A stretch of 5,204 nucleotides of DNA, from contig DAOVMD010000252.1 of NCBI GenBank assembly GCA_030630935.1, positions 1-5,204 of the forward strand, given 5' to 3'. Below, piece after piece: positions 1 to 5,204 of the stretch (positions within the stretch are counted from its first letter, which is position 1; every line of letters starts with the position of its first letter). The notes below the pieces were generated by a model. The model was not told the origin of the DNA, ran no database searches, and was given only the letters and a program-made list of their open reading frames with translations. Source of the stretch: Candidatus Mcinerneyibacteriota bacterium. GTDB taxonomy: Bacteria; AUK180; JAQVHJ01. A program made the position numbers and the translations under genes.

Positions 1-54
1 GTAGTTCTTTGAAAAGTATTATTATTAGGCATAACAATGGAGTTTCACCCCCTT
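1..54. repeat. Imperfect direct repeat, copy A
   Basis: This stretch matches 792-847 at most positions, with one single-base gap. Both copies carry CTTTG, AAGTATTAT, ATTAGGCA, CAATGG and GTTTCACCCCCTT in the same order and spacing. In both, an ATG in the CAATGG part is followed by codons for FHPL (reading M-E-FHPL here), but this frame stops after 14 codons. Copy A starts at or before the window edge, so its true left end is unknown. A degenerate partial echo (GAATAAGTATTGTTAGCA) lies at 76-93. It could be a dispersed repeat or the remnant of a local duplication. No transposase or terminal inverted repeats are visible. Confidence 0.6.
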
Positions 55-55
55 A

Positions 56-81
56 TTATTCCAGATCTAGATCTAGAATAA
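56..81. repeat. 26-bp near-perfect palindrome
   Basis: TTATTC and GAATAA form the outer arms (56-61 and 76-81). The 12-bp core at 63-74 is two tandem AGATCT units and is itself a perfect palindrome. Only the pair 62/75 (C against A) breaks the symmetry. It directly follows repeat copy A and has no counterpart after copy B. It could be a site for a dimeric DNA-binding protein or an RNA hairpin. No T tract follows it, so it is a poor terminator candidate. Confidence 0.55.
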
Positions 82-133
82 GTATTGTTAGCATTTAATA
101 CAGTTTCGATCTGATATCTCGGTCTGAACACTG

Positions 134-152
134 TTGTTTTCGAAGAAAACAA
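134..152. repeat. Short perfect inverted repeat (8-bp arms)
   Basis: TTGTTTTC at 134-141 and GAAAACAA at 145-152 are perfect inverted arms around a GAA spacer. The arms are A/T-rich and no T tract follows, so this is more likely a protein-binding site or a chance hairpin than a terminator. Confidence 0.35.
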
Positions 153-217
153 TGCCCCTACTAAACATTTCAAATGTCCTTCTTTTTTTTCATTCCTTAA
201 AAAGTTCTCGCCAGTTC

Positions 218-238
218 TCCCGATGTTAAAAATCGGGA
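218..238. repeat. Hairpin with 7-bp stem
   Basis: TCCCGAT (218-224) pairs perfectly with ATCGGGA (232-238) across a 7-nt A-rich loop. The stem is G/C-rich against a strongly A/T-rich background. The downstream bases (TCTCCTCTCTCTG) are pyrimidine-rich but not a T run, so a terminator role is doubtful. On the opposite strand the stem is followed by GAGAACTGG, which does not suit a terminator either. Confidence 0.35.
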
Positions 239-296
239 TCTCCTCTCTCTGTTCGTCGACCTGCTTAATAATCCTTTATTCTTTTTGTTTTTTTAA

Positions 297-341
297 GCGA
301 GATTGCCGCGTCATTCACTTCGTTCATTTCTCGCAATGACA
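297..341 (-). repeat. REP-like dispersed repeat (TCATTGCGAG type)
   Basis: Read on the minus strand, the element begins TGTCATTGCGAG and ends GGCAATCTCGC, with a central AATGAACGAAGTGAATGAC. From memory, this begin-and-end pattern recurs as a dispersed palindromic repeat in intergenic regions of many unrelated bacterial genomes. The ends can pair in two ways: ATTGC (302-306) with GCAAT (333-337), or GTCATT (310-315) with AATGAC (335-340). Both flanks carry a similar T-rich block, T5-G-T7 at 282-294 and T8-G-T9 at 396-413. No transposase lies in the window, so any mobility would depend on a protein encoded elsewhere. Confidence 0.6.
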
Positions 342-422
342 CAAAAATGGCTTTGATTTATCTCTTACAAGTCTCGTAAAAGTCCCTGTTAATTCTTTTT
401 TTTGTTTTTTTTTAAATAAAAC

Positions 423-452
423 TTGACTTTTGACCCTATTATATGCTATACT
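423..452 (+). promoter_or_regulatory. Sigma-70 type promoter of candidate RNA gene
   Basis: TTGACT (423-428) is the -35 box and TATACT (447-452) the -10 box, with an 18-bp spacer and an extended -10 TGC just before it. Transcription is predicted to begin near 458-460. That is the base of the large inverted repeat, which ties promoter and hairpin together. A second overlapping reading is TTGACC (430-435) with TATAAA (452-457) and a 16-bp spacer. It would start a few bases further in. Confidence 0.6.
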
Positions 453-458
453 ATAAAT

Positions 459-592
459 GGGTAAAGGATATTCAATCATAGCTCGATTGTTATCAGACCT
501 TGAAACAGTCATATCTTTCGGGATAAGATTGAGTTAAGTTAAGTTAATTTTCATTAATGGGCTATGATTGTTCCTCTACCCATTTTTATTTT
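459..592 (+). ncRNA. Candidate small structured RNA, family unrecognised
   Basis: The predicted transcript from the promoter at 423-452 folds into a long closing stem. Bases 455-463 pair with 577-585, 465-468 with 572-575, and 473-482 with 561-570, a total of 23 base pairs interrupted by one mismatch and one small internal loop. Inside it, TTATC (490-494) pairs with GATAA (522-526), and a further weak helix (about 483-488 with 528-532) extends this arm. On the 3' side of the central loop lie three GTTAA units (533-547) and a small hairpin, TTAAT/ATTAA (544-548 and 553-557). The closing stem runs straight into TTTTTATTTT (583-592), so it could also act as the terminator. Closing stem, open centre with a small 3' hairpin and an inner arm loosely resemble 6S RNA, but this is shorter than usual 6S RNAs. 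I see no SRP RNA signature. A MITE-like inverted repeat is the main alternative. Confidence 0.45.
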
Positions 593-755
593 CAGAGCCT
601 TTCCTATATTGTTCCTTAATGGAATAGATAAAAGATAACGGAGAGCAGAAACCAGTCGTTTTATAGACAAAAACATTGTATTCAATAATGCAAAATCATT
701 ATTCAATCTTCATTTTTTTAATGCTATTATTTTAAATCATGGTCAAGGTTAAACT
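593..755. other. Intergenic stretch without a recognisable gene
   Basis: I see no open frame with a credible start and no known RNA signature here. The only structure is an A/T-rich hairpin at 680-707, where ATTCAATAATG pairs with CATTATTCAAT with one C-C mismatch around a 6-nt loop. It is followed by CTTCATTTTTTTA (708-720). The T run lies several bases beyond a weak stem, so it is at best a poor terminator. Confidence 0.5.
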
Positions 756-756
756 G

Positions 757-788
757 GGGTGCAAGCACCCTTTCTGATTTCTGACTGA
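757..788. repeat. GC-rich hairpin followed by tandem TTTCTGA
   Basis: GGGTGC (757-762) and GCACCC (765-770) form a tight inverted repeat. A CAAG tetraloop on a 5-bp stem is the likely fold. It is followed at once by two copies of TTTCTGA (771-784) and a partial CTGA. The stem with TTT after it has a weak terminator look, but the T run is too short to be convincing. It sits just left of direct repeat copy B. Confidence 0.35.
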
Positions 789-791
789 AGG

Positions 792-847
792 TTAGTACTT
801 TGGATAAGTATTATAATTAGGCAAGAGCAATGGGGTTTCACCCCCTT
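792..847. repeat. Imperfect direct repeat, copy B
   Basis: This is the second copy of the segment at 1-54, one base longer and otherwise collinear. In this copy GGGGT-TTC-ACCCC (832-844) is a perfect 5-bp inverted repeat, while copy A has one mismatch in the same place. The conserved ATG context gives M-G-FHPL here and M-E-FHPL in copy A. The similarity ends abruptly after CCCCCTT in both copies. Confidence 0.6.
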
Positions 848-878
848 TCATTCATTTTTTACCCCGGTGTTTTTCATA

Positions 879-907
879 GGCACATTATAACATGTGCCGA
901 GGTTTTT
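879..907 (+). terminator. Terminator-like hairpin upstream of the cyclase promoter
   Basis: GGCACAT (879-885) pairs perfectly with ATGTGCC (892-898) across the 6-nt loop TATAAC. After a GAGG spacer comes TTTTT (903-907). The stem is good but the T run is short and offset by four bases, so termination may be partial. It would insulate the cyclase promoter at 948 from transcription arriving from the left, including from the candidate RNA gene. Confidence 0.4.
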
Positions 908-947
908 GTCCAGCAGCTTTTTAATAGAAGTACAATTCCATATCTAT

Positions 948-976
948 TTGACTTCTTTGAAAAGAAATGTTATAAT
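948..976 (+). promoter_or_regulatory. Near-consensus sigma-70 promoter of the cyclase gene
   Basis: TTGACT (948-953) and TATAAT (971-976) are separated by the optimal 17 bp, with TGT just before the -10 box giving an extended -10. The predicted start is near 983, leaving a leader of about 30 nt before the ATG at 1014. So strong a core promoter suggests steady expression unless a repressor acts on it. The spacer contains a short palindrome that could be such a site. Confidence 0.75.
953..966. promoter_or_regulatory. Possible operator between -35 and -10
   Basis: TTCTTT (953-958) and AAAGAA (961-966) are perfect inverted arms around GA and fill most of the promoter spacer. The first 12 bases of this site (953-964) also occur in repeat copy A at 5-16 up to one boundary base (CTTTGAAAAG exact). 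A dimeric repressor here would occlude RNA polymerase. A/T-rich 6-bp arms can arise by chance, so this is only suggestive. Confidence 0.25.
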
Positions 977-1005
977 ATTTTTCAAGCGCAATGCCAAACC
1001 TGAAT

Positions 1006-1010
1006 AGGAG
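1006..1010 (+). promoter_or_regulatory. Ribosome binding site of the cyclase gene
   Basis: AGGAG lies only 3 nt before the ATG at 1014, shorter than the usual spacing. An in-frame TAG at 1005-1007 overlaps it, so no start further upstream is possible. The next in-frame ATG is at residue 40, beyond the metal-binding motif at residues 31-38, so 1014 is the only start that keeps the first cyclase domain whole. Confidence 0.6.
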
Positions 1011-1013
1011 TTT

Positions 1014-4000
1014 ATGAAAATCACAAAGGCATTCAAGCCATTTTTTCATCATGATATAAAAACCTTATCAACATCTCTGCGGAACATCACCGGTTCCCTT
1101 TTATTTGCTGACATCTCCGGATTCACTTTAATGAGTGAAAGATTAACCAAACAAGGTAAGAAAGGGACAGAGGAACTCACCAATATTCTTAATAAATATT
1201 TCGATTCAATGTTGACTATAATAAAAGCCAATAACGGCAATGTCTCCAAAGTTGCCGGTGATTCTATCCTTGTGATTTTTAAAAATGAATCTAATTGTGA
1301 AAAATGTTCAAATTTAATGATGCGTGAAATGGCGAATTTCTCCAAAATTAAAACATCAGCCGGAAAATTCACATTAAAGATGAAGATAGTTATTCTCAAC
1401 GGTAATTGGGGAGAATTTTTAATAGGGTCTGAGACCAGGTCTGATATATTTCTATGCGGCAAACCAATAAAGGATTTAGCGTTTCTGGAAGACTCTGCCA
1501 AACCTGGTGAGATTAAGATCTTTGAATCAAACTTAAAAGTTTCAACCAAGCTCAAACCCGATTTTAGAAATATCAATCCTGATTCATTCCTTGATCCTGA
1601 TATTAAAAAAGCTATTCTTTCAAATATAGAGGGAGAACATCGTCCTGTCTCCAGCGTTTTCATTAAACTGGAAGGTTATAATGAAGATACACCTGATATT
1701 TCCACCATCAACTTATTCTACCGGGAATTGATAAAACTTTCAACTAAATTTCACGGTACAATTCAACCCCTTGATAATATCGTTGTTTCCGGGAGTAAAT
1801 TTCTAATCTTATTCGGTGTCCCGATCACTTATGGTGATGACATCTGGTATTCGCTTTTGTTCAGTGAAGCAATTTTAGAATTTTCCAAAACCTTCCCACG
1901 CCTGAACCTAAAAATAAGTATTAATCATGGTTATGTTTTTGCAGGAATAATTGGAAATAACTGGAGAAGGGAATATACGGTTGTTGGAGACGTTATTAAT
2001 ACCGGGGCAAGGTTAGTTGAAACTGCAAAGAAAAACCAAATTATCGTTTCAGAATCGATATTTCACTCGGCTAAAAGTTATGTGAAATTTTCCAAACTGA
2101 AATCAACTTCAGTCAAAGGTAAACGCAAACCATTAAAAAGATTTTCTCCTAAAATTATTCAGGAACAAAGAGAAGCACGCTTTAATTTTGTAGGTCGTGA
2201 AATTGAATTAACCCAAGTTATTGATAAGATTAAGCAGGGTAAACATTTCATTTCAATTACAGGCGCAGCCGGGATAGGAAAGTCAAGGCTTGTAAAGGAA
2301 ATTACTTCCAGGTTAAAAGGTCACATAATCCTACAAGGTTTCACGGATGCAATTAAGCCTGGGCTCTTCATATTTACTTCTCTTATTAAAAATTCTGTTG
2401 GGATGAAAGAAGAAGACCCTCCCAAGACCAAAGATAAAAAACTCCGGAAATATTTTGTTAAATTATTAAAAAACAAGAATCGTGTAATTTCAAGTGATGC
2501 AAAGAAGAAGATCCCATTTCTAAGTGAGGTATTGTTTGGGCTTGAAATAAAAGATTCGAGATATTCAAACATTGAACCAAAACTCAGGGAAGAGAATTTT
2601 TTAGATGGCTTGAAATATTTCATTGAGCTGCATAATGAGCCAATCGTAGTAATCCTTGATGATCTGCACTATTGCGAAGAGGAAGATTTCAAGGCATTGC
2701 AATACTTAACAAGAGTCCTTCTGGATTTATCGAGTACAAAAATAAGTTTTCTTATTACGACACGGCCAACCTTAAAAATAAGTTTTCTCGATGAATCAAT
2801 TAATCATTTTAACCTTTACCTGGAAGGCCTTAATAAAAGAAATTCAGATATATTAGTTAAACAAATCCTTAATAATAAAAACCTTGAACCTGCGGTTGAC
2901 AAGATTATTAAGAAGAAAACTTCAGGTAACCCATTCTTCATTGAACAGTTTCTTCTGTACTTGATCGAAAAAGAGCTAATTAAAGAAGGTAAGAAAAAAT
3001 GGGTGAAGTCGAGTCTTTATAATACAGAAGCTTTACCCGAAGATATTTTTTCAATGATCATGTCACGAATTGAACGACTCCATCAAAATGTGAAGGAGAC
3101 CCTTCGAATTGCGAGTGTAATCGGGGTGGAGTTTAATTTGAGAGTGATTGAAAATATTTTAAATTTGGAGATCAGGGATCTATTGGCTATTAGCGAGAAA
3201 GAGAATTTGGTTTATCTTAAAGATATAATAGAGCTTGAATATATTTTTGCACATTCTGTTATTAAGGATGTTCTCTATGAATCCATCCTTCGACAGAAAC
3301 GAAAAGAGATTCATCACTCTGTAGGTATTAACATTGAGAAAATCTATAAAAACGATATCCAAACCTTCTTTGGGATTCTTGCATATCATTTTATCCAAGC
3401 CGCAGACTGGGAGAAAGCATATCTTTATTCTTTCCGGGCAAGTGAAAAGACCGCAAGAGAATATAGAAATGATGAGGCACTTAATTTCATTATTAAATCT
3501 AAATCAATTTTACAGAATAAATTAAAGAGAAACCCGAATGAGCCAGGTGAAATGAACAACCTTCTAATTGAACTATATTTGAGAAAAAATAACTTCAAAA
3601 AAGCACTTAGTTTATTAGAAAAAGTTTATAGGAACTCAAAAGATGTATTGCAAAGAAATGAGTGCAAAATTAAAATAGCAAAAGTTCTACACCTTATGGG
3701 AGAGAATCAAAAAGCAATCAGGAACTTGAATTCTTTAGAGAAACATTTAGAAGATCAAGTTGACGAAAAAAAACTATTATTAAAATTAAATCTGCATAAT
3801 TTAAAATGTGAGATTTATCTCTATTTAGGAAAGATTAAATTTCTATTTAAAGAAATTGAGCAATCAAAAAAAATAATTAATCACCTGCCTAAGGGAACGA
3901 AATCAACCAGGATTGCTACTTGCAATTCATATATTTCTATATTGAACACATCAATTGTTATGTGCGAATATAAAAAGGCAATTGATATTGCAATGAAGAT

Positions 4001-5204
4001 TTTAAAATTAAAACGACAATTAAAAGATATCCCTGGCATCGCAGTTGCATATTCTTCTCTTGGAGCGAGTTATATGAAAGCCGGCGAGTTTAATAAAGCG
4101 CTTAAGTTTGCCCAAAAAAGTTTAGCTCTTTTTCATAAATTAGGAGATAAACTAAATATTTCAAAACAAAATGTTGATTTAGGCCTTATAAATATGTACC
4201 GGGGAAAATACCAGGAAGCAGTTAAGTTATTAAAATCTTCAATTAAATATGCAAAAGCTATTGATGATAAAAGGCTGCTTGAATCTGCAGCAAGTAATAT
4301 CGGAAAATTATATTTAAACATGAAAGAATTAGATAACTCAATTAAATATTACACAATGAGTGTTGAGATTAGTAAGCAGCAGGGAAGTGAGGGTGGTCTT
4401 GCAGTTGCTTATAATAACATTGGAAACCTTTATATGTATAAAGGTGAATTTGAAACGGCCGAAAAATTTCATAGGAAAGCTCTACGGTTTTTTACTAAAA
4501 CCAATAATAAATCTGGAGTAGGCTCTATATATAATGACTCTTATGTATTAAATTATTTTAAAAGAGATTATAGAAAAGCTCTTTTTTACTTAAAGAAAGC
4601 ATGCAAAGTATTTGAAGAGATTAATGATAAACAAGGAATTTGCGCAGGGCTTTGGAATGAAGGGAGTCTATACTTCATTCTTTTTCAATACAAGAAAGCA
4701 TTGTTGACATTTCAAAGAGCCCTATCAATTTCAAAAATAACTGGATTTCATGAAGCAGAGTTAAACATTACCTATTATATTGCCCAGGTTTACCATGCTT
4801 TAATGGATTATAAAAATTCCGAGAAATATTTTGAAAAAAGTATCTATATTTCAAAAGAATTGAATAATAAAAAATTCATCTTACTTTCAAGATTAAAATT
4901 AGCAACATTGTACGTGGAGCAAGGAAAAATGCTGAAGGCAGCACAAATTATTCAATTGATTCAAGAAAATAAAACAAAAATTAAAGACAATTATATACTG
5001 TATGATTTATATTTCTTGTTTGCTGTATTTCATTTAACCAGGGAACATTGGAAAAGAGCAATGAACTATATTAATAAGTCATTAACTATTTCGCAGAAAC
5101 ATAAAAGTTCTGAGATGATCTATTCTGTCTATCTCCTTAAAGCAGAGTTCTTTTCTAAAATAAAAAATAATAAGAAAGCAGGAATATATTTTAATAAAAC
5201 AATA
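1014..5204 (+). CDS. Soluble adenylyl cyclase-type protein: tandem cyclase domains, NTPase and TPR array (3' end missing)
   Basis: This predicted cytoplasmic cyclic-nucleotide synthase is open for 1397 codons and has no stop before the window ends. No signal peptide or membrane segment is visible. Cyclase domain C1 spans about residues 27-165, with metal aspartates D33 (in LFADISGFT) and D83 (in KVAGDS). Cyclase domain C2 spans about 210-375. It has lost both metal positions (K218, S261) but keeps T322, N329 and R333 in EYTVVGDVINTGAR, the half-site that completes the C1 site. An AAA_16/STAND-like NTPase follows: VGRE at 393-396, Walker A GAAGIGKS at 417-424, Walker B VVILDDLH at 545-552, TTRP at 582-585 and GNPFF at 638-642. 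A helical linker contains FAHSVIKDVLYESIL (745-759). From about residue 785 to the edge the protein is TPR-like helical pairs, clearest from 1009 on with a period near 40 residues. Domain order and spacing match mammalian sAC (ADCY10) and its bacterial relatives. The class assignment is firm. Product and activating signal are not known. Confidence 0.93.
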   Translation, partial: MKITKAFKPFFHHDIKTLSTSLRNITGSLLFADISGFTLMSERLTKQGKKGTEELTNILNKYFDSMLTIIKANNGNVSKVAGDSILVIFKNESNCEKCSNLMMREMANFSKIKTSAGKFTLKMKIVILNGNWGEFLIGSETRSDIFLCGKPIKDLAFLEDSAKPGEIKIFESNLKVSTKLKPDFRNINPDSFLDPDIKKAILSNIEGEHRPVSSVFIKLEGYNEDTPDISTINLFYRELIKLSTKFHGTIQPLDNIVVSGSKFLILFGVPITYGDDIWYSLLFSEAILEFSKTFPRLNLKISINHGYVFAGIIGNNWRREYTVVGDVINTGARLVETAKKNQIIVSESIFHSAKSYVKFSKLKSTSVKGKRKPLKRFSPKIIQEQREARFNFVGREIELTQVIDKIKQGKHFISITGAAGIGKSRLVKEITSRLKGHIILQGFTDAIKPGLFIFTSLIKNSVGMKEEDPPKTKDKKLRKYFVKLLKNKNRVISSDAKKKIPFLSEVLFGLEIKDSRYSNIEPKLREENFLDGLKYFIELHNEPIVVILDDLHYCEEEDFKALQYLTRVLLDLSSTKISFLITTRPTLKISFLDESINHFNLYLEGLNKRNSDILVKQILNNKNLEPAVDKIIKKKTSGNPFFIEQFLLYLIEKELIKEGKKKWVKSSLYNTEALPEDIFSMIMSRIERLHQNVKETLRIASVIGVEFNLRVIENILNLEIRDLLAISEKENLVYLKDIIELEYIFAHSVIKDVLYESILRQKRKEIHHSVGINIEKIYKNDIQTFFGILAYHFIQAADWEKAYLYSFRASEKTAREYRNDEALNFIIKSKSILQNKLKRNPNEPGEMNNLLIELYLRKNNFKKALSLLEKVYRNSKDVLQRNECKIKIAKVLHLMGENQKAIRNLNSLEKHLEDQVDEKKLLLKLNLHNLKCEIYLYLGKIKFLFKEIEQSKKIINHLPKGTKSTRIATCNSYISILNTSIVMCEYKKAIDIAMKILKLKRQLKDIPGIAVAYSSLGASYMKAGEFNKALKFAQKSLALFHKLGDKLNISKQNVDLGLINMYRGKYQEAVKLLKSSIKYAKAIDDKRLLESAASNIGKLYLNMKELDNSIKYYTMSVEISKQQGSEGGLAVAYNNIGNLYMYKGEFETAEKFHRKALRFFTKTNNKSGVGSIYNDSYVLNYFKRDYRKALFYLKKACKVFEEINDKQGICAGLWNEGSLYFILFQYKKALLTFQRALSISKITGFHEAELNITYYIAQVYHALMDYKNSEKYFEKSIYISKELNNKKFILLSRLKLATLYVEQGKMLKAAQIIQLIQENKTKIKDNYILYDLYFLFAVFHLTREHWKRAMNYINKSLTISQKHKSSEMIYSVYLLKAEFFSKIKNNKKAGIYFNKTI

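Follow-up and report, generated by a model that had tools for sequence, protein, structure and literature searches.

Sibling small RNAs (sRNAs) that arose by duplication are a well-known class, e.g., OmrA/OmrB, PrrF, and AbcR (reviewed in PMC4211561). A comparable pair is probably present in the genome of Candidatus Mcinerneyibacteriota bacterium (GCA_030630935.1), of which a stretch of 5,204 nucleotides was analyzed here as the window (contig DAOVMD010000252.1, positions 1 to 5,204 of the forward strand). The segment 423-590 on the plus strand most likely represents a free-standing structured sRNA gene of approximately 130 nt, which is one of two sibling copies, and we put the probability of this assignment at about 0.8. 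Similar to OmrA/OmrB, PrrF, and AbcR, two related small RNAs are found in one genome as separate genes, for which duplication is the easiest explanation. However, the sRNA described here has no known sequence relation, as it matches nothing in Rfam, and its terminator stem encloses the whole RNA. A terminator closing over about 100 nt is unusual and was counted against the assignment as an sRNA gene. Since sibling sRNAs originating from duplication are well known, this gene is of an ordinary kind, and Rfam does not contain its family. The best reading of the locus thus appears to be a lineage-specific pair of sibling sRNAs. An unassigned sRNA gene had also been proposed in a preliminary description of this DNA, which is supported by the missing Rfam match, by the two promoter-bearing copies, and by pair-preserving changes between them. 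Judged from the sequence, the locus has the attributes of a bacterial intergenic sRNA gene, i.e., its own promoter, a structured RNA, an intrinsic terminator, and no coding function.

When the window and both copies were scanned against Rfam 15, nothing scored above the gathering threshold, and the best chance matches were far below it. Like 6S RNA (RF00013), the RNA is predicted to be closed and lies behind a housekeeping-type promoter, but it is shorter and has a three-hairpin core instead of the single central bubble of 6S RNA. A loose resemblance to 6S RNA, which had been noted in the preliminary description, is not supported. The sole match of the 6S covariance model in the host genome at E<=10 is C433:7660-7835 (64.1 bits), which is a separate 6S gene, whereas 423-592 gives no match at this threshold, and 6S identity was therefore rejected. 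With retron msr-msd RNAs and Y RNAs the RNA shares 5' and 3' ends that pair and close the molecule. However, neither a reverse transcriptase (RVT_1, E<=0.01) nor a TROVE/Ro60 protein was found in the host genome, which is 80% complete. Since both readings are thus left without their partner protein in the incomplete genome, retron ncRNA and bacterial Y RNA were rejected.

The promoter consists of the -35 box TTGACT (423-428, plus strand), which is identical in the paralogue, and of the extended -10 element TGC-TATACT (444-452, with TATACT at 447-452), which is separated from the -35 box by an 18-nt spacer and corresponds to TGT-TATAAT with the same 18-nt spacing in the paralogue. With 10 of 12 matches plus the TG, the promoter (423-452) is among the best promoter-like sites of the region, and transcription is predicted to start at 458-460, 6-7 bases past the -10 element, on the GGGTA that begins at 459. 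The extended -10 promoter with a start near 459 that had been recognized before is thereby borne out. A genome-wide count of the pattern TTGAC-N12-15-TATGNTATAMT revealed 115 sites, compared to a single one for the reversed control pattern, and therefore this pattern can be regarded as a real promoter class of the host; the site of copy 2 is among the matches listed, and that of copy 1 fits the pattern by reading. The same TATGTTATAAT also precedes the genome's own 6S gene. As the density is one such site per ~55 kb per strand, it is very unlikely by our own estimate that chance alone placed one within a few bases of where the stem begins in both copies.

The small RNA is predicted to extend from 459 to 590 on the plus strand (~130 nt), with the start deduced from the promoter and the 3' end, which lies in the U run, from the stem and the U run. 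The minimum free energy (MFE) of 459-592 is -41.8 kcal/mol, compared to -23.5 +/- 3.1 kcal/mol for 200 shuffled sequences (z -5.95, with 0/200 as good), and 456-588 is predicted to fold into one closed multi-hairpin RNA ending in the U run, in agreement with the multi-element fold suggested earlier. The closing stem has the 5' arm AAUGGGUAAAGG (456-467, plus strand), the first bases of which may lie upstream of the start. Its GGGTA (459-463) pairs with TACCC (577-581), directly followed by ATTTTTATTTT (582-592), exactly as had been described. The second stem has the 5' arm CAAUCAUAGCUC (473-484), whose partner is 559-570, and the 3' arms of the second and the closing stem (559-584) double as the stem of the predicted terminator, the U-rich tail of which is AUUUUUAUUUU (582-592; AUUUUUUA in the paralogue). 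Hairpin 1 (485-510) exposes the loop AGACCUUGA, which is mostly retained in the paralogue as UGACCCUGA. It is followed by hairpin 2 (512-525), UAUCU-UUCG-GGAUA, which reads GCCU-UUCG-AGGC in the paralogue with two pairs changed on both sides, and by the A+U-rich hairpin 3 (529-557), which is the least certain part of the predicted fold. The closing stem, the second stem, and hairpin 1 constitute the secure part of the modeled structure; all of these elements are on the plus strand. Two details of the preliminary description have to be revised. An inner arm of 490-494 with 522-526 is absent from the MFE structure as well as from the two-copy consensus; TTATC (490-494) is part of hairpin 1, and GGATA (521-525) closes the UUCG hairpin. 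The GTTAA triplet is indeed present at 533-547 within hairpin 3, but it is not a defining element, because the paralogue keeps only its last unit.

The host genome that was searched for further copies comprises 3.16 Mb in 471 contigs and is about 80% complete. One further plus-strand copy was found by DNA search at C323:4817-4966 (77% identical, E 8.7e-25), for which the RNA model delimits the RNA to C323:4835-4968 and which folds with a z of -3.40; a third plus-strand copy was not found in the host genome with an RNA model built from both copies. The homology sets in abruptly at the -35 box and ends after the U run. Upstream of it the two copies differ at 44 of 60 positions, whereas the -35 box has no difference in its 6 bases, the initial 12 bases of the spacer have 6, and the -10 box has 1 in 6, i.e., the promoter hexamers are better kept than their spacer. 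Since the homology runs from the -35 box to past the U run, the conserved block corresponds to a transcription unit, and we regard the diverged paralogue as the decisive evidence for the presumed sRNA gene. The same comparison bears on the idea of a MITE-like hairpin, i.e., a small non-autonomous mobile element within a repeat-rich intergenic region. The unit has a 17-nt imperfect terminal inverted repeat (452-468/572-588), its surroundings are dense in interspersed repeats, and there may be a TA on both sides. However, there are only two copies, which have diverged to 77%, the homology goes ~30 bases past the left inverted repeat exactly to the -35 box, with the hexamers but not the spacer being conserved, and the changes between the copies favor pairing on one strand. 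A mobile element of this kind is therefore unlikely and was rejected as an assignment. Many genomic copies with target duplications and without a conserved promoter, which had been named as the finding that would speak against an sRNA gene, are not what the genome contains, as it has two copies and the promoter is kept in both.

For the comparison of base pairs the two copies were aligned by hand, with the UUCG loop as the anchor for the region of hairpins 2 and 3. On the plus strand RNAalifold predicts 41 common pairs, of which 30 are unchanged, 8 are changed on one side, 3 are changed on both sides, and none is broken, so that the pair-preserving changes that had been proposed as a check are found between the two genomic copies, the argument from covariation resting on these two sequences. 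The substitutions break 3 of the pairs of copy 1, compared to 8.9 +/- 1.8 when they are redistributed (0/1000 as few), and shuffled substitutions reach the observed consensus energy in 0/300 cases from copy 1 to copy 2 and in 0.3% from copy 2 to copy 1. When the pairs of copy 2's own MFE structure are tested instead, the 8 broken pairs do not differ significantly from the 9.5 expected, which is due to the disagreement of the two individual MFE folds in hairpins 2 and 3. The minus strand also retains a fair fold, like any palindromic unit, and the consensus energy of the two copies is -33.95 kcal/mol on the plus strand versus -27.25 kcal/mol on the minus strand. All 8 one-side changes involve a G-U pair. 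Since such exchanges preserve the pairing only with the plus strand as RNA, the direction of the fold agrees with that of the promoter. The pattern of substitutions does not suggest a short peptide gene on one or the other strand, which is the least probable of all alternatives. Copy 1 has a frame of 26 codons from the ATG at 457, and the minus-strand ORFs of both copies have a similar N-terminus, but the plus frame of copy 2 ends after 4 codons, and the differences by codon position (6:5:9 in the minus frame, and 1:3:5 in the plus frame, where they are few) reveal no convincing coding pattern.

Copy 1 is located between two blocks of interspersed repeats, 1-414 and 622-862, upstream of a cyclase-AAA-TPR gene. 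Parts of both blocks recur dozens of times in the rest of the genome, e.g., 707-848 with 92-93% identity, and 60-294 is palindromic, with TTTTCGAAGAAAA. The order of the modules 713-845 and then 364-412 recurs in several places, pointing to a composite element about 500 bases in length. Contig C461 ends with 104 bases that are identical to positions 1-104 of the window. It is therefore probably the left neighbor, and the intergenic region would then span about 1.6 kb. The open-ended ORF 1014-5204 encodes two class III cyclase stretches, an AAA_16 ATPase, and many TPR repeats. Since it starts ~420 nt downstream of the sRNA on the same strand, the RNA could be taken for its 5' leader or attenuator. 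However, a separate promoter-like site (948-976) precedes this gene, a terminator-like hairpin intervenes at 879-898, and the paralogue stands before unrelated genes, again with a promoter-like stretch in between, which makes a leader very improbable. Copy 2 is flanked on one side by a type IIG restriction-methylase gene and on the other by three small genes. The restriction-methylase gene (Type_ISP_C, L023 904-4026) is split into two ORFs, and downstream of copy 2 lie three close-set genes (L023 5180-6700), the first two of which have no match in Pfam, NCBIfam, or PADLOC and the third of which is SecB-like and matches PD-T4-9_C. These three genes possibly form a defense or toxin-antitoxin-chaperone operon. 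As copy 2 is found between the split type IIG restriction gene and the operon with the SecB-like PD-T4-9_C protein, the RNAs might also be considered a new lineage-specific structured RNA family that acts as RNA component or regulator of phage defense, which we regard as quite unlikely. Both copies are upstream of genes with promoter-like sites of their own. No obvious gene is common to the two neighborhoods, which argues for an action of the predicted sRNAs in trans.

DNA and/or RNA-model searches for relatives of the two RNAs gave none in six class-mate genomes, in 386 varied genomes, or in collections of phage, plasmid, and viral sequences, with the RNA-model searches taking in 98 and 386 varied genomes plus the six class-mates. 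Close relatives of the host are few, and the search included one other genome of its family, which is 72% complete. The best match among the class-mates, in contig G006:C301 (E 0.46), turned out on reading to be a different AT-rich, repeat-containing stretch and was discarded; it contains the motif GAAACATAGTACGATAGTTCCAATACTATGGGACTA twice, about 77 bases apart (L045 90-205). An 18-base degenerate core matched five times in 84,980 genomes, none of which is supported by the RNA model, whose only match on these contigs is weak (E 0.22) and lies elsewhere on L051. A pattern scan of viral sequences gave one chance match, likewise without RNA-model support, and phage and plasmid DNA contained no relatives. 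The family thus appears to be confined to the host genome so far, and since the searches gave no relative elsewhere, no function can be derived from synteny.

The housekeeping sigma factor would transcribe the sRNA from about 459, and the closing stem would shield the RNA and also terminate its transcription. With less confidence, the sRNA would then act in trans. More speculatively, and as the mode of action preferred here, the exposed and conserved loop of hairpin 1, GACCYUGA in both copies, could pair with target mRNAs, with Hfq, which is encoded in the host genome (80.2 bits), as a possible partner. Taken alone, this base-pairing step is tentative and somewhat less than an even bet. A possible target of the loop, UCAAGGUC of the interspersed repeat 707-848 for GACCUUGA, was dismissed, as the 8-base match is at about chance level by our own estimate. 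A close rival to base pairing is that the RNA is real but acts by binding a protein, i.e., by sequestering or scaffolding like 6S or CsrB-type RNAs, which is possible, if doubtful. The fold is fully closed with little single-stranded sequence, its stems are conserved, and the UUCG cap is stable, all of which would fit a protein ligand. On the other hand, the 6S model does not match, there are only two GGA motifs per copy, unlike in a CsrB-type sponge, and no obvious partner protein is encoded beside either copy. With the pair of sibling sRNAs as the preferred reading, copy 2 might duplicate the role of copy 1 or act on a shifted set of targets. Beyond the new gene pair, the value of the sRNA hinges on its function. 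The within-genome paralogue serves as a structural control where other genomes give no help, and a new sRNA gene pair with predicted start, end, fold, and sibling could be proposed from sequence alone in a sparsely sampled bacterial class.
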